Positions 2,983 to 42,226 of a stretch of 64,000 nt of DNA are shown piece by piece. Every line of letters begins with the position of its first letter. Position 1 is the stretch's first letter. Below the pieces are notes generated by a model. That model searched no databases, was not told where the DNA came from, and saw only the letters and a list, made by a program, of their open reading frames with translations. This stretch comes from Pedobacter alluvionis (GTDB taxonomy: Bacteria; Bacteroidota; Bacteroidia; Sphingobacteriales; Sphingobacteriaceae), in the NCBI RefSeq assembly GCF_003664035.1, contig NZ_RCCK01000010.1:992001-1056000 (forward strand), given 5' to 3'. A program made the position numbers and the translations under genes.

Positions 2983-3370
2983 TTACAGTGCGTTAGTTAT
3001 GAAGGTCGGGTCGATGAAATTAGTTCTAAATGCACCCCCACAGTAAGCAAGATTGTTTGAACAAGGCTCTGACTATTGAATGCTTCTGATATATATTACA
3101 AAGTTCGTAGATTTCAAAAAGATTTCTAAGACTTGGCAATACTCTCAGAATAGAGCTTTCGGTCTTGTCGTTTTTCTTATCCCTTGATTGCATGGTCAAT
3201 TCAATAGCTGCCTTTTCTTTAAGTTTTTTGAACCAAGTCTTGTAAGTGATGTTTCAATTTCATTGTCCATATAGCGTTCCTCAAGTTTGAAGATTTTATC
3301 CTTAACAACCTTTATTGATTGGCTGATAAGCAAATGTCTTGTTCTCTATCGCAGTCCCGATGATATTTAA
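2983..3370 (-). pseudogene. Decayed large serine recombinase, C-terminal part
   Basis: Translating the minus strand across several frameshifts gives consecutive blocks: KVVKDKIFKLEERYMDNEIE, then TYKTWFKKLKEKAAIEL, LRVLPSLRNLFEIYELCNIY, QKHSIVRALFKQS and finally AYCGGAFRTNFIDPTFITNA with a stop at 2983-2985. This order matches the C-terminal coiled and beta regions of Bacteroidota site-specific serine recombinases, whose tails characteristically read like FRTP-x-INPxFxHNAL. The catalytic N-terminal domain is absent. At least two frameshifts separate the blocks. Its place beside a tRNA suggests the leftover integrase of an old island. Confidence 0.7.
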
Positions 3371-3583
3371 CCCTTTACACATAAGGATACTATTTTTTGG
3401 AGTAATATTAATCAGATATATGTGTATATTTCAAGTCGTGATTCATTTCACCACTATTAAAAGTGGTTAATGAAAATTCCACAATTTGCCGGAATCTTTT
3501 TGAATTGTCCCGGACATAAACCCATAATATCTTGTATTAACATCAAATGGGAAAGCTAAAACTGTAAATTTTTAGATTTTATG

Positions 3584-4528
3584 CTAGATCATTTCAAGAA
3601 TACTAGCGTCCCGATACACCTTAGTTTCGTCATTTAATTTTAAATCGAATTCTGAAGAAAATGCATTGACAAACATCTCTAAATCCGTGATAATATCATT
3701 TTCGATTAAATTCACTGAGGAAATATCTACATCAACGTAAGTCCCGAATCGCTTAGATGATAGTGATTGTGCAACTACCTGATCTATATTTATGACGAAT
3801 ACTTCACGGTAATCTTCTCCATCTTTTTTGTAAACTCCAAACTTTTCTCGGAAGGTAGTATGTTCGATAACTGGTTGTAAATTTCCCGGAAAAATAAGAT
3901 TGTTTTGCCAAAGAATGTTGAACGGACTTTTTGAGACGGTATTGTCTTCATATTCTATGAAAGCTTCATTCCAACATCGTGAGATTTCGCCTAACCAATT
4001 AAATTCCAGTCTGATAGATATCTTGCTGTTTTTGTAAATCATAAATGGCATTTCTAAATTAATTGCAAATAGTTCTGACGTGGTTGCCGACCAGGTCATG
4101 AATGGACTGGTTTTAATTCGTTGTCTTATCGTGAACATTTTCTTGGTAAACGTTAAATCATCGAAATCGAAATAATGATCTATACTTTGGAAACCAGAAG
4201 GACGTAGATAACGTCTCAATATCAAGTTATTAAGGTTAGGTTCTTTTGAAAGAATAAGATCATCTAAGACTTTTCCCTCTAATCGATAAAGCTTATTTCT
4301 TAATCTCGAAAGTCCTTTGTCGTTAGATGGCTTGAGCCTTGCTTCATGTTCGAGGGATAGTTCATTAGGCTTTTCCTGGCTATTCCAAATTGTAGCAGGC
4401 CATTGGATGAGTTGATATCCACGTCGATCGATGTCCATTTTTGCATCGGCGATATTATGTAAGACCCAGTTACGATAGAACTCTAGTTCCTTAGGTGTGA
4501 TTTCTGTCGTTATCTGTCTAGTTTTCAT
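3584..4528 (-). CDS. Hypothetical protein, possibly CYTH/triphosphate-tunnel-like
   Basis: A 314-residue cytoplasmic protein with no signal peptide. I see no exact family match. The middle (DHYFDFDDLTF then FTIRQRIK) resembles the YFDTxx-L-xxxLRIR pattern of CYTH/VTC-type tunnel enzymes. Later segments (TFREKFGVYKKD, VFVINIDQVVAQS, TYVDVDISS) are spaced like further strands of such a barrel. The classical N-terminal ExExK motif is not visible, so activity is doubtful and the fold call is tentative. Its start overlaps the end of the upstream kinase gene by 11 bases, so the two are translationally coupled and probably act together. Confidence 0.6.
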   Translation of the reverse strand: MKTRQITTEITPKELEFYRNWVLHNIADAKMDIDRRGYQLIQWPATIWNSQEKPNELSLEHEARLKPSNDKGLSRLRNKLYRLEGKVLDDLILSKEPNLNNLILRRYLRPSGFQSIDHYFDFDDLTFTKKMFTIRQRIKTSPFMTWSATTSELFAINLEMPFMIYKNSKISIRLEFNWLGEISRCWNEAFIEYEDNTVSKSPFNILWQNNLIFPGNLQPVIEHTTFREKFGVYKKDGEDYREVFVINIDQVVAQSLSSKRFGTYVDVDISSVNLIENDIITDLEMFVNAFSSEFDLKLNDETKVYRDASILEMI

Positions 4529-17548: not shown

Positions 17549-17579
17549 TTTAAGCCCTCACCATCCGTAAGGGCTTAAA
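17549..17579. terminator. Hairpin terminator after the 212-codon gene
   Basis: TTTAAGCCCT (17549-17558) and AGGGCTTAAA (17570-17579) are perfect complements. It lies 18 bases past the stop of the minus-strand gene. The trailing T-run is weak. Confidence 0.6.
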
Positions 17580-17596: not shown

Positions 17597-18235
17597 TCAC
17601 TCAAAACTTCCTTTCCCATCAACACTATAACTGTAAATCACCATATATTCGGTTCCATTCTTTTGGAAATGTCCGATAGGAATATCACCTTTTTCAAAAT
17701 AGGCCGATTTGCTTTCGAATGGAATACCGCAAAGCATTTTATTCGGTTCTGTTTGATGATAAACAACATCGTTTCTATGGTTTGCAATGGCGATTAATGC
17801 TGATAAACTTTTGCTCGATCCTTTTTGGTTACACTTTGGATGGTGCGGGTGCTGATTGGCCGATACCCAGGCACCAGGCACCATTGGTTTATAAAATTTG
17901 CCAAGTGGTATATCGAATCTGCGTGGCAAAAAACAAGAGGCTATTGTTCCATTTTTAGTAATGGTTCCGGTTTCTATAAAGAAATGGGTAATTCGAATCC
18001 AATGCCGGGTGAGTTGATACACATATTCCCTTATGGAATTTTGTCCATCTTCTAAAAATTCTGCCCAACCAGTGTAACGTGGCAAAGTCATCATGATTTC
18101 AGAAACATGGCCATCAATATGATGTAAGGTAGCCTTTACTGCACAAATTGCAGGTAATACATTCATGTTGGCTGTTTCAGCTGCAACCTGAGCAGGGAGC
18201 TGTGTGTTTTGATTTTTACTTTTGGTAGTTCGCAT
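17597..18235 (-). CDS. Unknown 212-residue protein under a structured leader
   Basis: I do not recognise this family. The N-terminus (MRTTKSKNQNTQLPAQVAAE) is basic and Gln/Asn-rich. The middle has LPRYTGWAEFLEDGQNSIRE and a basic hydrophobic helix (YVYQLTRHWIRITHFF). The C-terminus is beta-rich with GTEYMVIYSYSVDGKG. No signal peptide or catalytic motif is evident. A degraded second copy of its 5' end lies at 26740-26850, so it is a multi-copy, probably mobile or lineage-specific gene. Its start codon lies within a 14-bp stem of the upstream leader, described separately, which suggests control of translation initiation. Confidence 0.65.
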   Translation of the reverse strand: MRTTKSKNQNTQLPAQVAAETANMNVLPAICAVKATLHHIDGHVSEIMMTLPRYTGWAEFLEDGQNSIREYVYQLTRHWIRITHFFIETGTITKNGTIASCFLPRRFDIPLGKFYKPMVPGAWVSANQHPHHPKCNQKGSSKSLSALIAIANHRNDVVYHQTEPNKMLCGIPFESKSAYFEKGDIPIGHFQKNGTEYMVIYSYSVDGKGSFE

Positions 18236-18398
18236 AACCGTAAAATAAAGTATCCTGGTCGCTGCGAACTACCAAATAACTCTTCACAGAGAAATTGAAA
18301 ATGTGGGGCTACCACTCGACCAGGAATATTGTTAAAGAAATTTAATTGATTTTAGCTCTGTGTTTAAGTGAATGATGATATTAATTAGTAATTCGCAT
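18221..18398 (-). promoter_or_regulatory. Leader with alternative hairpins and leader peptide before the 212-codon gene
   Basis: In the mRNA sense, a five-codon frame ATG-CGA-ATT-ACT-AAT-TAA (MRITN, 18398-18381) comes first. The middle arm TTTGGTAGTTCGCA (18276-18263) follows, then the gene start ATGCGAACTACCAAA (18235-18221). The middle arm is the exact complement of the start region, so the ATG can be sequestered. It can also pair, through G-U wobbles, with the leader-peptide frame, which resembles the gene start. A further pair, CCTGGTCG with CGACCAGG, brackets the middle arm. The layout is that of a translational attenuator. A second copy at 26.8-27.0 kb keeps the pairing with four compensated changes. 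Confidence 0.6.
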
Positions 18399-18581
18399 AG
18401 GCAATTTAGAAAAAACATCTCAAATCACAAAGAACTTTAATTATTAATTTGGTTTCTCATTAGCGTTCAAAGTAGCTTCGGTTATCCCATACTTTTTGTC
18501 CTATTGTAATCTTGCACTTTCAGTGCATAGTGGCCTAGTTTCTAATAATGAATTGGGAAAACAAATTGCAATGAAAGTCCA

Positions 18582-26739: not shown

Positions 26740-26850
26740 ACGGATAGCTTTCACTGCACAAATGGCAGGTAATACATTCATGTTGGCTTATTCAGCTGCA
26801 ACCTGAACAGGGAGCTGTGTGTTTTGGTTCTTAAAATTGTTGTTTCGCAT
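26740..26850 (-). pseudogene. Degraded 5' copy of the 212-codon gene
   Basis: From ATG 26850 the frame reads MRNNNFKNQNTQLPVQVAAE, then a TAA, then ANMNVLPAICAVKA in the same frame. The intact gene at 18235 reads MRTTKSKNQNTQLPAQVAAE-TANMNVLPAICAVKA. Similarity then ends, so this is a 3'-truncated copy with a nonsense mutation. Confidence 0.75.
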
Positions 26851-27018
26851 AATAATGTTAAAAAGATCCTGGGGGCTGCGAAACAACAATAAACTCTTTT
26901 TAGGGAAAATTCAGATACGGTGCCAAACCTATAACCCAGGAATATTGTTAAAAATTGATTTACTTACTTAATTGCTTCTCTGTCTAAGTTGAAAATTCTG
27001 TTTATTATTATTTCGCAT
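26836..27018 (-). promoter_or_regulatory. Second copy of the attenuator-like leader
   Basis: A leader frame starts at ATG 27018 (MRNNNKQNFQLRQRSN, ending 26968). It is followed by the middle arm ATTGTTGTTTCGCA (26890-26877) and the start-codon arm ATGCGAAACAACAAT (26850-26836), again exactly complementary over 14 bases. Four stem positions differ from the 18-kb copy and all four are compensated. CCTGGG/CCCAGG repeats the second pairing of that copy in changed form. Confidence 0.6.
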
Positions 27019-27216
27019 AGGCGATTTAGAAACAAAATCTCAAAACACAAAGAAAAATCTTAATTATTAAATTAATTCCCGGTTGCTGCAAACTGCCAGT
27101 TAAATTATTGAAAAATTAATTGGTGCGTCATCCCGAGGGTTAGTTTATTGCTTAAAATCAATGACAGAATATTTGACTTAAGCCGTATTTTATAATTAAA
27201 ATAGCGGTTTAAGAAA

Positions 27217-33768: not shown

Positions 33769-34740
33769 ATGAATTGGAAATACAGTGAACTTGCGAAAAC
33801 ACTTTCAGGATTATATTATAACCAATTAAAGATTGTACAGTTGTTGATCCGGGCAAGTTTGGCTCCGGGTGACTATGACCTAAACGAATCCGCATATATT
33901 TCTATTGTCCTGCTTTTAAAAAAATTGGATGATCAGGGCCTTATCAAGACTTTATTAACTGAAGTCATTAAAGACTATCCCAAGAATGACATTATACTGG
34001 ATGTATTAGAAGATAAACCGATCCAGAACTGGCATGCAAGTGTTTATGCGGGAGTCGAACCACAGATAAATGCAGAAGAGCGGGACTTCAATTATGAGGC
34101 TCTAACCCAGAACCTAAGCACGCTCCTTCCCATTAGTTTTCTGGCTAAAGGATTAATTATGGCCAAATCTGTTGTAAGGATAGTCACAGCCGATAAAATG
34201 GGAACCGGGTTCTTGATAACAGCATCAAATATTCTACTTACCAATAATCATGTCATCCCTTCAGCCAAATCCCTTTCTGAAATTGATATCTACTTCAATT
34301 ATCAGAAAGATATAAACGAAAGAACAGAACCGGTAGAAAAAATGAAACTCGATCATAATTTTTTCCATACCTCCGTTGCTGATGATTGGACTATCGTAAA
34401 GCTTTCGGGAAATCCGATCGGCTCTTATGGCTATATTGATCTATTGTCGGTTGACATCAGGAAAAATGATTTTGTTAATATTATCCAGCATCCGGGTGGA
34501 GAATACAAACAAATTAGTTTATACCATAACATGGTTTCATATACTGATGACAGTAGGATAAGATATCTAACAGATACGCTTCCAGGTTCTTCCGGGTCGC
34601 CCGTATTTAATTCAAAATGGGAGGTAGTTGCACTCCATAATAGCGGTGGATATTTCCCGATCAGGGATGGATCAAAGATTTTGTGTAACCAGGGTATAAA
34701 TATCAATAGGGTTATTGATGGAATTAAGGATTTAATATGA
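33769..34740 (+). CDS. Effector-associated-domain-like plus trypsin-like protease
   Basis: A 323-residue cytoplasmic protein, first of the coupled conflict operon. Residues 1-85 are an all-helical adaptor (YYNQLKIVQLLIRASLAPGD; LLKKLDDQGLIKTLLTEVIK) that is clearly related to the N-terminus of the next gene's product and matches the effector-associated-domain (EAD) type of homotypic-interaction module. Residues 132-300 are a chymotrypsin-fold protease with an intact triad: His161 (TNNHVI), Asp206 (DDWTIV) and Ser275 (PGSSGSPVF). Its stop overlaps the next start as ATGA. The likely role is activation by oligomeric signalling and cleavage of a partner or host protein. Confidence 0.85.
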   Translation: MNWKYSELAKTLSGLYYNQLKIVQLLIRASLAPGDYDLNESAYISIVLLLKKLDDQGLIKTLLTEVIKDYPKNDIILDVLEDKPIQNWHASVYAGVEPQINAEERDFNYEALTQNLSTLLPISFLAKGLIMAKSVVRIVTADKMGTGFLITASNILLTNNHVIPSAKSLSEIDIYFNYQKDINERTEPVEKMKLDHNFFHTSVADDWTIVKLSGNPIGSYGYIDLLSVDIRKNDFVNIIQHPGGEYKQISLYHNMVSYTDDSRIRYLTDTLPGSSGSPVFNSKWEVVALHNSGGYFPIRDGSKILCNQGININRVIDGIKDLI

Positions 34741-35522
34741 TGAGGAAACATCTTAAACCTGTTTTTTACAGCAGGCTTGTAGTTAAGCTGGCCGCATTTT
34801 ATCCGACCCAGTTGACTGTTAGGCAGGTTCTAATCAATAGTGAGATACCTGAAGGGGCGATCAATCTCCAGGGAAGCGCAGTCAACATGTGGGATTCAGT
34901 TATTGGCTATGTTGAAAGCTGGGAAATGCTTACAGTTTTACTTTTTAATAGCTTGAGCAAATATGAAAATGACCAGGAGGTTTTTGAACTGCTGGATGCT
35001 GTCAAAACTGGCTGGGCCTTCCTGCCTGAACTGGATGAGTGGCAGTTTCTTCCCGGTAAGGTATCTAAAGATACCGTGAAAATTGCTATCATCAATTCCG
35101 CAGAAGATATTTTAGATTGCTCCGGATTGGTAAAACAGTTAAAAGTTTTGCAGTTGGAGGGGTTAGTGGAAGTAAATCAGGTTATTGTAGATTTTGAACC
35201 AGGTTCAGACGAAGTGGGTAGCTATCAAAAGCATATAGCTGACTCCTGCATCGTCCTGCTAATGTTATCACCTGCTTTTTTTAGTGCCGAGGATTGTCTC
35301 AAGCAGTGTTTCTTTGCTTATAAAGTTAAAAAACTGGTGGTTCCGATATTGCTAAAGGAATGTTTATATGGGAGGGTCAGGTTTTTGAAAAACATTATCC
35401 CGTTGCCCAAAGACCGCACCTTTATTCAATCATCTCCAAATAAAAACAAAGTTGAAATGGAAATATGTCAGGAGCTCGCTCTGCTGAGCGAAAAATTTAT
35501 AAGGGAGGGCCTATGTCTTTAA
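34737..35522 (+). CDS. Effector-associated-domain-like plus TIR-like protein
   Basis: A 261-residue protein. Residues 1-88 repeat the adaptor of the upstream protease (FYPTQLTVRQVLINSEIPEG; MLTVLLFNSLSKYENDQEVF). Residues 112-255 have a TIR-like alpha/beta order: VKIAIINSAEDILDCSGLVK, a second strand EVNQVIVDFEPGS, then SCIVLLMLSPAFFSAEDC and LVVPILLKECLYG. Bacterial TIR domains either hydrolyse NAD+ or mediate interaction. The catalytic glutamate cannot be placed with confidence. The shared N-terminus implies that the protease and TIR protein join one assembly. The next start lies inside its last codons. Confidence 0.78.
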   Translation: MMRKHLKPVFYSRLVVKLAAFYPTQLTVRQVLINSEIPEGAINLQGSAVNMWDSVIGYVESWEMLTVLLFNSLSKYENDQEVFELLDAVKTGWAFLPELDEWQFLPGKVSKDTVKIAIINSAEDILDCSGLVKQLKVLQLEGLVEVNQVIVDFEPGSDEVGSYQKHIADSCIVLLMLSPAFFSAEDCLKQCFFAYKVKKLVVPILLKECLYGRVRFLKNIIPLPKDRTFIQSSPNKNKVEMEICQELALLSEKFIREGLCL

Positions 35523-36796
35523 ATGCAGTTCAATGGGATTATTTTTTAAGGGAATTAAGCTTAGGGAATTGTTGTCTTATCATTGGTCCGGAGATAAAAT
35601 GCCTGTTGGATTCCAAGGGCGAACTGACAACTGTTCTAAAAGAGTTCTCGATACACTTAAAGGGGAAAATGAACGAAAATGAAATCCTTAATGGCGATGA
35701 AGATGATTTTCATTTCCGTGCCAATCAGTTCCGGTCATTACGGTATACCAACAATCCCAATAGATTTGATGATGATATAAATGAATTTGTAAAACACCGC
35801 CTTAATTCTGTGCCGGATCTTTATAAATTATTGGCAAAATTACCTTTCAAAACAATCTGCAACTTGGTTCCCGATTTTTTTTTAGAAACCGCATTGTACA
35901 ATACCGGACGTTTTTTTGAAAAAGAACATTACGATTTCAAGGTTCAGACAGAAAGGACAGTTTCACTCGAGAATGAAACCCAGTTTATCTACAATATTTA
36001 TGGCACTTACAAGCATCCCGAATCGATAGCTGTAACCCATAAGGAACACCTGGAACAAGTTCGTAACATCGTTTCTGACGTTCCTAAAATCCCCAACGCA
36101 GTTATTAACAGGTTCACTGGTACAGGTAAAACATTCCTCTTTATCGGTTTTGATTTCAACGCATGGCATCATAGGCTTATCATGGAAAGTTTAAAGATCA
36201 AGAAACCGGAAATTGCCTATTTTCCCGAAAGCGGTCATTATCAGGTTGCGGTAGTGGCTAAAGATTTTTATGCCGGAAACTACGGTATGACTTTCCTGCC
36301 CATAGATACCGATGCTTTTATAAAAGAGATCGTGGATAAGTATGAAGATTTATTCGGAAAAGCCGATAGGAACCTCAATATATTCATTGATTATAGTGAT
36401 CAGGAAGAAAAGCAATATTTAGCCTTAATACGCAATATGAAAATTGCCTGTAATGGACGGAATTTTACTTATTTCTCAAAGAATGATGGCTTTGGGGGAT
36501 CGGTATTCAATATTGATGACATCTTTGCCATGACTGATGTTTATATACCTCTTTTAAGTGTTGATTTCTTGAGTGAGGAGTCCAATAACAACCGTGTTAA
36601 GCAAGCTGTTGGCAACACTAAGATTAAGACCATTTTGATTAACGCGAAGTTTGTGGCCTTAGAACGTTTATTGAATAATTTCACTAAAATGCCTAGTATT
36701 CTCCCCAGCCTCAAGACCCCACTATCCACATACAGTGAATCGGATAACAAAGTCTATGATCAGATATCAAATAAAATAAACTCTATTTTAATATAA
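35513..36796 (+). CDS. SIR2-like plus TIR-like protein
   Basis: A 427-residue protein starting at the ATG (35513) that overlaps the previous stop by 10 bases and follows GGGAGGG. Residues 5-280 resemble the SIR2-like domain of bacterial defence proteins: FLRELSLGNCCLIIGPEIKC, LAKLPFKTICNLVPDFFLET, FIYNIYGTYKHPESIAVTHK and TFLFIGFDFNAWHHRLIMES. Residues 290-425 form a TIR-like domain (RNLNIFIDYSDQEEKQYLAL; DIFAMTDVYIPLLSVDFLSE; KIKTILINAKFVALERLL). SIR2 and TIR domains in phage defence deplete NAD+, so this is a candidate effector. The stop overlaps the next start by one base (TAATG). Confidence 0.8.
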   Translation: MSLNAVQWDYFLRELSLGNCCLIIGPEIKCLLDSKGELTTVLKEFSIHLKGKMNENEILNGDEDDFHFRANQFRSLRYTNNPNRFDDDINEFVKHRLNSVPDLYKLLAKLPFKTICNLVPDFFLETALYNTGRFFEKEHYDFKVQTERTVSLENETQFIYNIYGTYKHPESIAVTHKEHLEQVRNIVSDVPKIPNAVINRFTGTGKTFLFIGFDFNAWHHRLIMESLKIKKPEIAYFPESGHYQVAVVAKDFYAGNYGMTFLPIDTDAFIKEIVDKYEDLFGKADRNLNIFIDYSDQEEKQYLALIRNMKIACNGRNFTYFSKNDGFGGSVFNIDDIFAMTDVYIPLLSVDFLSEESNNNRVKQAVGNTKIKTILINAKFVALERLLNNFTKMPSILPSLKTPLSTYSESDNKVYDQISNKINSILI

Positions 36797-39753
36797 TGGA
36801 AGGTATAAAAGAAAAGGTCGTACAAACAGATCATGAAATTGACCGTTATCCAGGCCCTAAGCCATTTGACGAAAATTCAAACGCACTTTTTTTTGGCCGT
36901 TCTGCAGAGATTAAGGAGCTGTTCGAAGCAATAAATGTTCATCAGGTTTATCTTATACATGGAGAATCCGGATTGGGAAAATCATCACTGATCAATGCCG
37001 GTCTGATTCCTAAACTTAAAGAGGAAGGTTACCTTCCACTGCTCTTTAGGTTTAAACAGCGGGATAAAACGCTGATAGAAAATATTTTAAGCGAGTTGCA
37101 TATAAGCTTTAACGGTGTTGAAGCCATAAATTCAGAACCGCTTCCAGCATTTCACATGTTGTGGTACTATATCAAACAGTACAATTTTGAAGGGAAAATA
37201 CCTGTTTTTATATTTGATCAGTTTGAAGAGTTTTCGATATTTTCAAAGGATGAGCAACAGGAGTTTTACTCAGAGGTGGCCTCTATATTTTCCCCAGATA
37301 ATAAACAGCTTATTGCAAAATTGTCAGATGGGGAAGATAAAGATCAGGATTGGTTCCTTCCGGCAAATGTAAAACTGGTATTCAGTCTGCGTTCAGATAA
37401 TCTGATGGTGGTTGAAGATCTTTATAAATACTTGCCAGCCCTTCAGCGTAACCGCTTTAAACTGAAACCTATCCTTTGGGAATTTGCAAGACAATTGATT
37501 GTGCAGCCAGCCTTAATTGAATCAACTGAAAATCTTAAGTTTTATTCGCCACCTTTTATCATTGATCAGGAGGTTACCGAGAACATCCTTAAAGTTACAC
37601 GGGATGGGAAAGCAGACTGTATTGAAACCACGCAGATGCAAATGATCTGCCAGGAAATTGAGTTGTTTGTTAAAGATAAACCAAATAAGAACCAAGGTAA
37701 CAGCATTACCAATGATGATTTTTCTCTGGAAAAACTGTATGAAATTACCAGTCGCTTTTATCAGCGACAACTAGGTAAAATAAAGGATCTGCCGGAAGTA
37801 TCTGAAATCGAGTTTAAGGCGATCAGGTTGATCATAGAAAGTAAGTTATTGGTTCGTGGTAAACGTACCCCCTTAACAAAAGATACCTTAACCGATTGCT
37901 TTATCGCTTATTTCAAGGAGAGAAAAAAAAGAACACCAGAATCAGGTGAACCTGATGAGTTGATCCTGATATATTCTCAGGATGAGAATAGGAGCATAGA
38001 TAATATTATACTCAAACTATTAGAATTCCGGATTATAAGGGATCAGCCCTATGGAAACCAGGTATTTTATGAAATCAGCCACGATACGTTAATACCAGGG
38101 ATATTAAATGAATTAGATGCACGGTTAAAGGAGGAGCACTTGGATCTGTTAAGGCAAGAAAAAGAAAAGATAAGTGAAGAAAATAGAGCCAAACAGGCAT
38201 TTACCGACTTAAATAACAAAAAAATATTTTTAAGACGATGCCTTATTGCTTTTGCCGTATTAACAATTTTTTCTTTTGCTTTCTTTATTATTCGTAGCAT
38301 AATAACCAGAAAAGAAAATGATCTGGTATTGACAGAGAAGAAAATTCTGCTTGGAGATGGTCTGATCAGAGAGGGTAAGCAGCATTATGAAAATAAGGTG
38401 CTTTCTCAGGCATTTAATTCCTTTCGAGATGCCGGACAAACCTACAATTCATTGCACGCTTATAAAATTATAGATTCCCTTCCATTTGCAGAACTCACCG
38501 CCAGGACCTTTTTTCCAAGTAGTGACAATAAGATCGTTGTTTCTTTTCTGCCGGGAAAAGCTTTCACCGTTTATGACATCATTAAGGCCATACCGAAGAA
38601 GATATTCTCTTCAAAAGGTATTGGTTATAGCCAGCCCAGTATTTCTCCCAAAGGCAAGTATCTTTATGTAACAGACCCAAGAAATACATCTTATCTGATC
38701 AGCCTCAAAAATGCCCATGTTTATGATGTTAATACAAAGAAAATTTCCGATTGGGGATATTTCAAAAATGAGTCGTGCTTTTACTATAAGACCGACCTTG
38801 GATATAGTTTTTATACTCTGCCTGGCTTTAATAAATCTTGGATAGCTGGTTTAGAGTTTTTAGGCAAACTTAATCCAATAGATAATCTGAATTTCTCATC
38901 TAACGGAAAGTATGTTTATGTGAAAAAGGGAAATCAGAATATCATTTATAATGTCGGTACATCCCAAAAAATAGCCACATTGCCAAAGAATATTTATGGC
39001 TTCAACTTTCACGATAAGCAGCCAGTATATTATTATTTCGAAAGCAATAATACATTGGTGGTCCATAATTTTGATACCAATTATGAAATGAAACTCCCAA
39101 CGGCCAAGCATAGTTATGTTGGGGTTATTGGCGACCGTTTAATTGTAAAAAACAATAAAACCAGCCGAATATTCGGAATTGAACATGCATTCCAATTTTC
39201 TTACGCAATCAACCTTGCAACAAACAAGATATTTAAAGTACCCGACAACATATACAGGTCAAACATCATTGGCTTTTCGGGCGAAAAATATTTAGTCTAT
39301 AAGAGGTTAAAGTCCAGGGTCTTATATAATGTAAGGAGCGGTAAAAATATTGAAATTGATTTAGCATCCAGCATCTATACAGATAACGAATCAAATTTGG
39401 TTTACTATTTAGATAGTGAAGGTTATTTAAATCAGTATAATCTAAATAACGATAGCATTCATGTATTCTCAGGGCACAAAATGGAAAAGTTCACTATAAA
39501 TAATCTACGGACAAAAGTAGCTTTTCAGGATAAAGTAGGTGAAATCAAAGTCCTAGACCTTAAAAGTGGAGCAGTGAAATTAAGTGATTTTAAAGGTGAG
39601 GTCATAAGTTTTCTGGGGCCACTGGTCGAGATTCAGCCGGCCGTGGAACCATTTTCGGAATATCATGTTCTTGTAAATCCTGAAGGCTTTCAGCTTAAAG
39701 GTAAGGCGAAAGTAGATTTTTGGAGCAATGTATATAAAAAGAGGAATGACTAG
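36796..39753 (+). CDS. STAND NTPase with transmembrane segment and propeller-like C-terminus
   Basis: A 985-residue signalling NTPase of the nSTAND1 type. The opening RYPGPKPFDENSNALFFGR is diagnostic. Walker A is GESGLGKSS at 56-64 and Walker B is FIFDQFEEF with Asp141. A winged-helix-like region follows to about residue 445 (FYEISHDTLIPGILNEL). A coiled segment then leads to one transmembrane helix at about 478-503 (AFAVLTIFSFAFFIIRSII), so the protein is membrane-anchored. Residues 570-985 are beta-strand repeats like a degenerate WD40/propeller sensor (SISPKGKYLYVTD; FSSNGKYVYVKKGN). In this class, ligand sensing by the propeller drives NTPase-dependent oligomerisation that triggers effectors. 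Confidence 0.88.
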   Translation: MEGIKEKVVQTDHEIDRYPGPKPFDENSNALFFGRSAEIKELFEAINVHQVYLIHGESGLGKSSLINAGLIPKLKEEGYLPLLFRFKQRDKTLIENILSELHISFNGVEAINSEPLPAFHMLWYYIKQYNFEGKIPVFIFDQFEEFSIFSKDEQQEFYSEVASIFSPDNKQLIAKLSDGEDKDQDWFLPANVKLVFSLRSDNLMVVEDLYKYLPALQRNRFKLKPILWEFARQLIVQPALIESTENLKFYSPPFIIDQEVTENILKVTRDGKADCIETTQMQMICQEIELFVKDKPNKNQGNSITNDDFSLEKLYEITSRFYQRQLGKIKDLPEVSEIEFKAIRLIIESKLLVRGKRTPLTKDTLTDCFIAYFKERKKRTPESGEPDELILIYSQDENRSIDNIILKLLEFRIIRDQPYGNQVFYEISHDTLIPGILNELDARLKEEHLDLLRQEKEKISEENRAKQAFTDLNNKKIFLRRCLIAFAVLTIFSFAFFIIRSIITRKENDLVLTEKKILLGDGLIREGKQHYENKVLSQAFNSFRDAGQTYNSLHAYKIIDSLPFAELTARTFFPSSDNKIVVSFLPGKAFTVYDIIKAIPKKIFSSKGIGYSQPSISPKGKYLYVTDPRNTSYLISLKNAHVYDVNTKKISDWGYFKNESCFYYKTDLGYSFYTLPGFNKSWIAGLEFLGKLNPIDNLNFSSNGKYVYVKKGNQNIIYNVGTSQKIATLPKNIYGFNFHDKQPVYYYFESNNTLVVHNFDTNYEMKLPTAKHSYVGVIGDRLIVKNNKTSRIFGIEHAFQFSYAINLATNKIFKVPDNIYRSNIIGFSGEKYLVYKRLKSRVLYNVRSGKNIEIDLASSIYTDNESNLVYYLDSEGYLNQYNLNNDSIHVFSGHKMEKFTINNLRTKVAFQDKVGEIKVLDLKSGAVKLSDFKGEVISFLGPLVEIQPAVEPFSEYHVLVNPEGFQLKGKAKVDFWSNVYKKRND

Positions 39754-39974
39754 TACAGTGTCGATTTCGTTTACACCTTACTGTCGGGTATATCAGTATT
39801 ACAGACAAAAGTATCCTTGGCGGTGTATTTAAAATTCTCCAAACCATTCCCCAGCGCTGTCAACTATAAAACACGGGCGGCTGGACTGTTTGAAAGTAAT
39901 TTGATACCATTTGTAAAAGGCTATTTTTTTAAAGCCTGATATTGCATTTTTACATAACCGTAAATAACATTTAT

Positions 39975-41432
39975 ATGGCATCTATCAACGAAAAAGATTT
40001 TATTATCAATGTAGGGCCTGGGGGCACCTTCCAAAAGTCAGGTAAGTACCAAACTGTCCCTGAAGATATTGATCGCATGTTCGAAAAATTTCAGCGCGAA
40101 GATGCAGGCAAAATTGCTGTTTTTTTTCACGGAGGACTGGTTGACGAAGCCAATGGTGTAAAAGCTGCTCGGAATATGTACCCGGTAATTTCGGAAGCCG
40201 GTTGTTCACCCGTCTGCTTTGCCTGGGAGACAGGGCTTGTGGAAACAATCGGTAACAATCTCACCAAGATCTCCGAGACTACTTTATATAATAAGTTGAT
40301 AAAACTTATCCTCAAACGGGTGACAAAGAAATTGGGAATCATATCGGTTGTGGGCCGGGGCGGGCAAAATGGATTCACTGAAGAGCAGATACAGGTGGAG
40401 CTCATGAAACAGGAACCTTTTGCTGATTATAATCAGCCAGGCACTGCCGGGCGCTCTGGTAATATAAGTACCCCAGAGGAGCTTGCGGGCAGAGAGCCTT
40501 TCCTGGAAGCTGAGCTTGCACAGGAATTTGAAGCAGATGTAGCGGGTGACCTCGAATTACAACTCGCGATCCAGAAAACACAGGTTACCACGATGGAAAC
40601 AGAATTGGTTACAGGGGGCAGGGGAGTAATTAGTTTTGTCGGTTTCGTTGCTCACGCCGTCAAGATTGCTTATCGGATCATCAACCGCTTTATCCAAAAA
40701 CGTGATCACGGTCTGTTTCCTACCTGTGTGGAAGAAATTTTGCGCGAATTTTATATTGCCGAAATTGGGGCATGGGTATGGAAAGGCATGAAAGATAAAG
40801 CTGATGGGATGTGGGAATCTAATGAAGGGCGTACAGGTCTCAACCAGTTAGCAGGGCGCTATTTTCTGGATAAACTTGCCGCGTATAAAAAAGCTAAGCC
40901 CTTAACAAAAATTCATCTCATTGGCCACAGCGCCGGATCAATTGCCATCTGTCATCTGCTCCGTCATACCAGTACGATCAATGATAGTTTTAGATACAAT
41001 CAGTTATTGTTCTTAGCACCGGCGTGCCGGGCTGATTTGTTTAAGAAAGAAGCAATTGATCATTTGGGACGTTATGATGATCTGCGAATTTTTACAATGA
41101 CTGACGATAATGAATGTAGAGATAAGATGGTCCCATATTTTTATACCCATTCTTTATTATATCTGATTTCAGGGGTACTGGAAGATGAGGGCAAATCATT
41201 TGATGCCCACATCCTGGGCTTACAACGGAATATCGGGTTTGCTGATCCATATAATGTTCCAGAATTAAGTGCAATCCATGATTATTTGTATGAAGATGGG
41301 GCTTATCGTGTGTCATTTTCTGAAAACTTGGCAACTACACCTGCAGGCATGGGTACTTCAGCCCTGAAGCATGGGGATTTTGACGATGATGCGGCTACAA
41401 AGAACAGTATCACCACGATTTTGAGTTTATAA
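39975..41432 (+). CDS. Alpha/beta-hydrolase-like protein of the conflict operon
   Basis: A 485-residue cytoplasmic protein. The nucleophile elbow GHSAG is at residues 317-321 (Ser319) in TKIHLIGHSAGSIAICHLLR, and an N-terminal oxyanion-type FFHGGLVDE lies at 51-59. A long charged insertion (about 130-215) separates these. LLFLAPACRADLF and the late THSLLYLISGVL and FDAHILGL supply candidate acid and histidine positions. It may be an esterase or lipase effector acting on membranes. I chose the ATG at 39975 because the upstream codons are hydrophobic and unlike the fold. It is followed 5 bases later by the caspase gene. Confidence 0.75.
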   Translation: MASINEKDFIINVGPGGTFQKSGKYQTVPEDIDRMFEKFQREDAGKIAVFFHGGLVDEANGVKAARNMYPVISEAGCSPVCFAWETGLVETIGNNLTKISETTLYNKLIKLILKRVTKKLGIISVVGRGGQNGFTEEQIQVELMKQEPFADYNQPGTAGRSGNISTPEELAGREPFLEAELAQEFEADVAGDLELQLAIQKTQVTTMETELVTGGRGVISFVGFVAHAVKIAYRIINRFIQKRDHGLFPTCVEEILREFYIAEIGAWVWKGMKDKADGMWESNEGRTGLNQLAGRYFLDKLAAYKKAKPLTKIHLIGHSAGSIAICHLLRHTSTINDSFRYNQLLFLAPACRADLFKKEAIDHLGRYDDLRIFTMTDDNECRDKMVPYFYTHSLLYLISGVLEDEGKSFDAHILGLQRNIGFADPYNVPELSAIHDYLYEDGAYRVSFSENLATTPAGMGTSALKHGDFDDDAATKNSITTILSL

Positions 41433-41437
41433 TAGCT

Positions 41438-42226
41438 ATGGCAAATTACGCGATTATTATTGGGATTAACCACTACACCGCGCCTGATAAGCAGGGGCTG
41501 AAAGCGTTGAAAGGTGCGGTAAACGATGCGCAAAAAATTTATGAATGGATTATCGGCCCTGGAGGTGTACCACCTGAGAACTGTCGGCTCATCCAGTCAG
41601 TTGCAGACCCGCTTAATCCAATAAAGAACCAGGTTGACCACGCGATCGCCGATATCGTCCGGATGGTTGTGACAAAGGATAATAAAAATGCAGACCGTTT
41701 GTATTTTTATTTTGCCGGACATGGGATGGGCGTGCAGATCGACCGTGAAAATAATGGGCTGTGTATGGCTGATTGGGATGAATACATGCGTGATTCCGCA
41801 ACTTTGTCTTCCAGTGAATACAAAAAAAAGTTCATCAACGAAGGACTCTTTAAGGAAGTTGTTATATGGCTGGATTGCTGTCGTACGACTAAACTTTTCC
41901 TCTCTCCACAGCCTGGACCGGGCATTGTACCTCTCGGTCAAAATAATAATCCGCGTATGATGCTTGCTTTCGGTACCGAGTTCAAAAATGAAGCTTTTGA
42001 GGCAGAGTTTTCCATAGGCAATGATCTGGAAACCAGGGGGGTATTTACCAGGGTGCTTTTGGATGGTTTGATAGATCTTGCCCGCAATGAGAGGGGTAAA
42101 GTAGACGCAAATGATCTTATGGATTATCTGGATTTTTTTGTTCCCAGAGCAGCGCAGCAGGCAGGCTTCAGTCAGGAACCTGAGTTTTACACCAATTTAA
42201 CAAAGGTCAAAACAATTATGTTTTAA
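41438..42226 (+). CDS. Caspase-like (peptidase C14) protease
   Basis: A 262-residue caspase-fold cysteine protease. MANYAIIIGINHYTAPDKQG begins the p20-like subunit. The catalytic His is His95 in FYFAGHGMG, and the Cys is Cys148 in VIWLDCCRT. A following region LAFGTEFKNEAFE and GVFTRVLLDGLIDLA matches the p10-like part. All elements are present and the size is normal, so it should be active. Bacterial caspases in such operons are switched on by STAND or adaptor partners and kill or disable the cell. The next gene starts 11 bases later. Confidence 0.92.
   Translation: MANYAIIIGINHYTAPDKQGLKALKGAVNDAQKIYEWIIGPGGVPPENCRLIQSVADPLNPIKNQVDHAIADIVRMVVTKDNKNADRLYFYFAGHGMGVQIDRENNGLCMADWDEYMRDSATLSSSEYKKKFINEGLFKEVVIWLDCCRTTKLFLSPQPGPGIVPLGQNNNPRMMLAFGTEFKNEAFEAEFSIGNDLETRGVFTRVLLDGLIDLARNERGKVDANDLMDYLDFFVPRAAQQAGFSQEPEFYTNLTKVKTIMF

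Follow-up and report, generated by a model that had tools for sequence, protein, structure and literature searches.

A probable phage-derived 5′ leader RNA family in Pedobacter with a predicted translation switch at the start codon of the following gene

A 5′ leader RNA was recognised upstream of a 212-aa protein gene in a 64 000-nt stretch of Pedobacter alluvionis DNA (NZ_RCCK01000010.1, positions 992 001 to 1 056 000; the whole stretch is referred to as the window). The leaders are considered a real RNA family, for which no description was found; in the reading judged probable, they derive most likely from temperate phages and switch the translation of the gene that follows. Their structure is well supported; the direction of the switch and an action in trans are inferred. 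An RNA family that is structured, covaries strongly in three ways and is linked to prophages and to SymE toxins is thereby added to Bacteroidota, a phylum in which RNA regulation is poorly known.

The features of the leader and of its surroundings are listed in Table 1. The first-pass annotation had pointed out a five-codon frame that resembles the gene start (MRITN versus MRTTK); both are present on the minus strand: ATGCGAATTACTAATTAA (MRITN*), the leader frame, from 18398, and ATGCGAACTACCAAAAG (MRTTK...), the gene start, at 18235. The perfect complementarity over 14 bases that it had claimed between a middle arm and the gene start was recovered at 18263-18276 and 18221-18234, an inverted repeat of 14 nt with 100% complementarity, and the G.U-tolerant pairing of the middle arm with the leader was found to span 13 positions, including two G.U pairs. 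As judged from the sequence, A:A′ and A′:start are mutually exclusive helices, and A′:start together with P1 is a predicted H-type pseudoknot over the start codon; the idea of a conserved leader with mutually exclusive helices, the start codon being buried in one of them, was supported.

Table 1. Positions of the leader, the gene and associated elements in the window.
Feature	Position	Strand	Remarks
212-aa protein gene	17597..18235	-	leader extends to ~18450
Promoter -33-like TTTG	18428..18431	-	spaced 19 nt from the -7 box; element and spacing recur in many leaders
Promoter -7 box TAAATTGC, Bacteroidota TANNTTTG type	18401..18408	-	4/6 here, 6/6 in several relatives
Arm A, predicted transcript 5′ end	18385..18397	-	pairs with A′ at 13 positions, 2 as G.U; covaries with A′ and start
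P1 5′ strand CCUGGUCG	18317..18324	-	covariation with 18254-18261
P2 hairpin GUGG-UAGCC-CCAC	18303..18315	-	compensatory changes
P3 hairpin CUCU-GUGA-AGAG	18280..18291	-	GNRA loop in nearly all intact copies; U-A/U-G closing pair conserved
Arm A′ (anti-start arm) UUUGGUAGUUCGCA	18263..18276	-	fully complementary to the gene start; pairs with arm A if wobbles are allowed
P1 3′ strand CGACCAGG	18254..18261	-	covaries with 18317-18324; crosses A′:start
Start arm: most of start codon (ATG 18235-18233) and codons 2-5	18221..18234	-	complementary to A′
Nucleotide-conserved block, codons 12-19 (CAGCU...AGCUG)	18178..18202	-	conserved beyond the protein's need
Terminator-like hairpin ending the conserved unit (~900 bp)	17551..17579	-	inter-copy homology ends here
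Second leader copy, decayed, with truncated ORF	26745..27073	-	sequence type unlike the first

The pairing was unambiguously supported in the covariation test that the first-pass annotation had proposed: covariation as strong as that observed was obtained in 0/500 shuffles. In all 23 aligned leaders of the window gene family, A′:start is Watson-Crick paired at 14/14 positions, and A, A′ and start vary jointly over six sequence types, including one leader (L053) whose protein is only 36% identical. In this comparison 99% of cells were paired, versus 36-47% with the partner slid by 1-3 columns. P1 (8-9 bp) and P2 covary as well, and P3 is CUCU with a GNRA loop. Joint change of A, A′ and start was followed through about 80 leaders and at least 15 sequence types (15 within Pedobacter, further ones outside); all three arms were present in 80/81 leaders. 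Two leaders from one genome, L008 and L016, are 92% identical over 1.4 kb and differ in type in all three segments, and whole leader modules therefore appear to have been exchanged. Among the mismatches between arm A and the gene start (counted over distinct triples), 50/77 are C to T and give G.U pairs with A′, a sequence bias that points to pairing as RNA. A predicted cis switch at the start codon is strongly supported by this comparison.

For the proposed switch, transcription would begin at arm A, and a compact core, in which P1 encloses P2 and P3, would expose arm A′. In the nascent RNA, A′ would pair with A first; after transcription of the gene start it would re-pair with the latter over 14 bp, the order of both steps being derived from computed folding. 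The pseudoknot of A′:start and P1 would then bury the start codon and turn translation off, and this OFF state would be the resting state. When folding was computed with pseudoknots excluded, P(A:A′) before transcription of the gene start was 0.80-0.98 in 13/13 leaders; once the start had been transcribed, P(A′:start) was 1.0 for the window leader, and A′:start was dominant in most others. Some leaders (G200 and G304_L088) remained A:A′ at equilibrium in these computations, the energies of which ignore pseudoknots. The mean difference between A:A′ and A′:start was -0.7 kcal/mol, the helices being near-balanced because arm A keeps G.U pairs with A′ at most differences. These computed values would fit a switch of translation in which the early state is metastable. 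P1 with its U-rich tail was not recognised as an intrinsic terminator in a consensus scan, so that the release of a short leader RNA is hypothetical.

Homologous leaders, a search for which had also been proposed in the annotation, were sought with two covariance models, R1 (whole leader) and R2 (core without arm A). R1 matched 71 leaders in 34/145 Pedobacter genomes, most of which do not precede the window gene family; R2 also matched leaders in 8 further genera of the family and, beyond it, in a second family. An A′-matching arm A was located upstream of all R2 matches but one (G290, spurious), which constitutes independent confirmation, since arm A lies outside R2. In G020 the start arm was found to be decayed. 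The leaders gave no match in Rfam 15 at gathering and permissive thresholds, in agreement with the suggestion that the regulatory arrangement might be new.

The ORFs behind the Pedobacter leaders belong to about nine families without detectable mutual relation (178, 141, 158, 201, 106 and 100 aa, and others), and the downstream products include a RadC-like protein, SymE toxins and many unknowns. SymE toxins follow at least nine leaders, several of which were among the R2 matches: Pfam PF08845 (SymE) scored behind leaders in G115, G015, G052 and G492, and close sequence relatives of SymE follow leaders in G348, G298 and G268. G115 contains four SymE copies with four distinct leader types. The window gene itself is not SymE according to the Pfam search. 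In the SymE-class leaders L173, L174, L176, L177, L179, L183 and L193, the P2 loop is approximately UGNAAGU and T-loop-like, without a match in Rfam; we take this loop to resemble that of cobalamin riboswitches. A Flavo-1 RNA (RF01705) was noted at L112 1358-1456, downstream of one leader-bearing gene.

Conservation at the nucleotide level continues into the coding region. In the Pedobacter families Leu13 is encoded by CTC in 45/45 cases, CTC accounting for 7% of Leu codons elsewhere, and Ala19 is encoded by GCT in 48/48. Codons 7-20 (window 18178-18220 and equivalents) specify a tag, KN.NTQLP.QVAAV, the synonymous sites of which are conserved across unrelated proteins, so the element reaches about 60 nt into the coding sequence. 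Candidates for this extension are an RNA hairpin, an operator and an antisense promoter. An antisense TANNTTTG-like -7 box was found at +11 in 56/78 leaders; as this motif coincides in part with the start arm and the Pedobacter families have it by common descent, it is at most suggestive of an antisense promoter.

A rival reading is that of a purely cis type I toxin mRNA resembling hok, in which arm A and the start arm would compete for A′ in the manner of the hok elements tac, dcb and ucb, respectively. Control would be exerted by an antisense RNA or by processing, and the downstream genes would be toxins. This reading is unlikely, while retaining some weight: besides the antisense box, it draws on the SymE toxins behind the leaders and on the coupled covariations attributed to the hok family as well (Gultyaev 1997, in the form in which it is cited in PMC6733600). 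A 3′ element complementary to arm A was not found, however, the best match scoring 9.7 as observed versus 9.9 in shuffled sequences; the antisense box is subject to the overlap and shared descent noted above, and on inspection by eye it is apparently not conserved in the SymE starts. Moreover, most downstream proteins are without recognisable toxin identity, and the differing types within a genome would not be needed by a purely cis device.

The leader might also respond to a ligand, a protein or temperature, with the P1-P3 core as sensor and A/A′/start as expression platform. The three-way core, with its invariant unpaired ACAATAT before P1 and GAG before P2 and its GNRA loop, would suit a sensor, the helix-swapping platform would suit a riboswitch, and the 14-bp helix at the start codon could melt. 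The unrelated, partly phage-borne downstream genes, however, do not suggest a single ligand, the platform switches type while the core stays, and no relation to Rfam was found; a role of this kind is considered quite improbable.

The position of the promoter bears on the claim of the first-pass annotation that the leader encodes a translated peptide. In 64/80 leaders, exactly 3 nt separate arm A from the end of a preceding TANNTTTG-like -7 box (Bacteroidota consensus from PMC7366714), and TGC in arm A is preceded by A in 46, G in 29, T in 3 and C in 2 leaders, a purine in 75/80. This purine and the spacing of the box are as expected of a transcription start at arm A; arm A would thus most likely be the 5′ end of the transcript, not a peptide gene, and a ribosome-binding region could not fit upstream of it. 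In most copies a frame with ATG or GTG, often of five codons, does occur at arm A, but CCG, TCG or ATT takes the place of the start codon in some leaders and the frame ranges from 4 to 100 codons, so that neither frame nor start codon is conserved. The translated peptide was accordingly abandoned, and with it falls translational attenuation of the erm type by ribosome stalling, which is now deemed highly improbable. A DNA element (a recombinase or transposase site), in which the repeats would act as DNA, would account for a unit of ~900 bp with sharp ends, varied contexts and direct and inverted repeats, but is equally improbable in view of the C to T bias by which arm A keeps its wobble pairs, the GNRA loop, the placement of the promoter and the attachment of the repeats to the start codon.

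The protein encoded behind the window leader had been called unknown in the first-pass annotation, and its 212-aa sequence indeed gave no match in Pfam, NCBIfam or PHROG. An AlphaFold model was of moderate confidence, with residues 1-27 disordered, and a credible fold match to it was absent from the PDB; for the 178-aa downstream family the model quality was too low for use. The window protein is present in 21/145 Pedobacter genomes, in some as fragments or distant relatives, and outside Pedobacter a single weak protein match (E 5e-4) was found among 400 genomes of the order. The window genome contains 3 copies of the gene, one of which is a fragment inside the window. Homology between copies runs from ~220 nt upstream of the gene to the hairpin ~690 nt downstream, and their flanks are mostly unrelated to each other; leader and gene together are, as far as the sequence indicates, a self-contained transcription unit of ~900 bp, which in the window genome occurs as a solitary gene. 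Where one genome has several copies of the 212-aa gene, as in G000 (1.010-1.063 Mb) and G287 (1.006-1.081 Mb), these lie within 35-80 kb and share one orientation, an arrangement unlike that of a freely moving transposon. Decayed leaders without a gene (L097 367-552, L116 289-460, L117 1293-1477, L111 2865-3056, L052 478-579) lie ~200-600 nt from another leader, and the left flank of many units bears remnants of the A′-P1 tail, which together suggest repeated insertion or replacement at the site. Elsewhere in the window, genes for trypsin-like protease, TIR-like, SIR2-like, nSTAND NTPase, DUF900 hydrolase and caspase-domain proteins are clustered at 33769-42226 (+), apparently a locus for conflict or for defence against phages, and a DUF6266 gene at 1806-2917 adjoins a tRNA.

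Searches for relatives of the protein or the leader in plasmid and phage record collections gave none; two phage contigs (IMG/VR) bearing the leader were found by pattern. On L209 the leader heads a three-ORF operon, the third ORF of which (3206-3811) encodes a prophage protein homologous to the window protein, and is surrounded by a tyrosine integrase, an excisionase-like gene and terminase small subunits. On L210 and in its chromosomal counterpart in G203, a tape-measure gene stands beside the leader, and tape-measure or integrase genes are located near leaders of G251, G058, G347, G011, G056 and G086. From these gene neighbourhoods, a phage origin appears well supported for part of the family, and the copy in the window resembles a solitary descendant. 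The types of the two phage contigs, GCGAAACAAC and GCAGAACAAC, are also common among chromosomal copies.

Within Pedobacter genomes, 1/52 leader pairs shared a type, versus 4.8 expected (P=0.02, for copies related by descent), and the sole same-type pair involves a 3.9-kb contig; the test of distinctness is modest, with P 0.01-0.04 and copies related by descent. The mean energy of A′ with its own start was -20.0 kcal/mol, and with the starts of paralogues -8.8. A purely cis switch needs no difference of type within a genome and a trans-acting RNA would, which is a hint at action in trans. The leader RNA carrying A′ probably acts in this manner on transcripts of the same type, as an immunity factor would, and the leaders may thus serve in immunity. 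It is a further, rather doubtful possibility that the solitary chromosomal units are domesticated phage immunity modules that silence incoming phages of the same type in trans, an idea prompted by the recurrence of phage contig types on chromosomes and by the nearly constant difference of types within a genome.

Several known systems can be compared with the leaders. Pedo-repair RNA (RF01715) was likewise described from Pedobacter and is of similar length, but its model, run without a positive control, matched neither the leaders nor anything in 7 leader-bearing genomes. The timP toxin mRNA also adopts mutually exclusive folds including a pseudoknot, which there activates translation (PMC11228461), whereas the pseudoknot of the leaders would bury the start codon. 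In hok mRNA, with its coupled covariations and metastable folding (PMC6733600), an arm at the 5′ end and an arm at the start region similarly compete for a single middle arm; unlike in hok, no 3′ fold-back element was found in the leaders, and the proteins are unrelated. For Escherichia coli SymE, control is exerted by an antisense RNA that covers the start (PMC4147584); proteins of the SymE family (PF08845) follow at least nine leaders, but nothing resembling these leaders is described there.

The CI RNA of phage P4 has two pairing partners within its own transcript, seqA on its upstream side and seqC on its downstream side (PMC4825925). The leaders resemble this system in being partly phage-borne and in possessing a middle arm that can pair with one sequence before it and another after it. 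Heteroimmune relatives of P4 carry matched changes in all three segments, and changes matched across all three segments were found between the leader types here. As to location in a control region, prophage genes surround several leaders, while the window copy is a solitary gene. P4 differs in that transcription is terminated, whereas the downstream arm of the leaders is exactly the start codon region; the host phylum is another one, no sequence relation is known, and a processed RNA is here putative. If the types correspond to immunity groups, RNA immunity of the P4 kind would extend to Bacteroidota, and phage RNA control would have been reused by the hosts.
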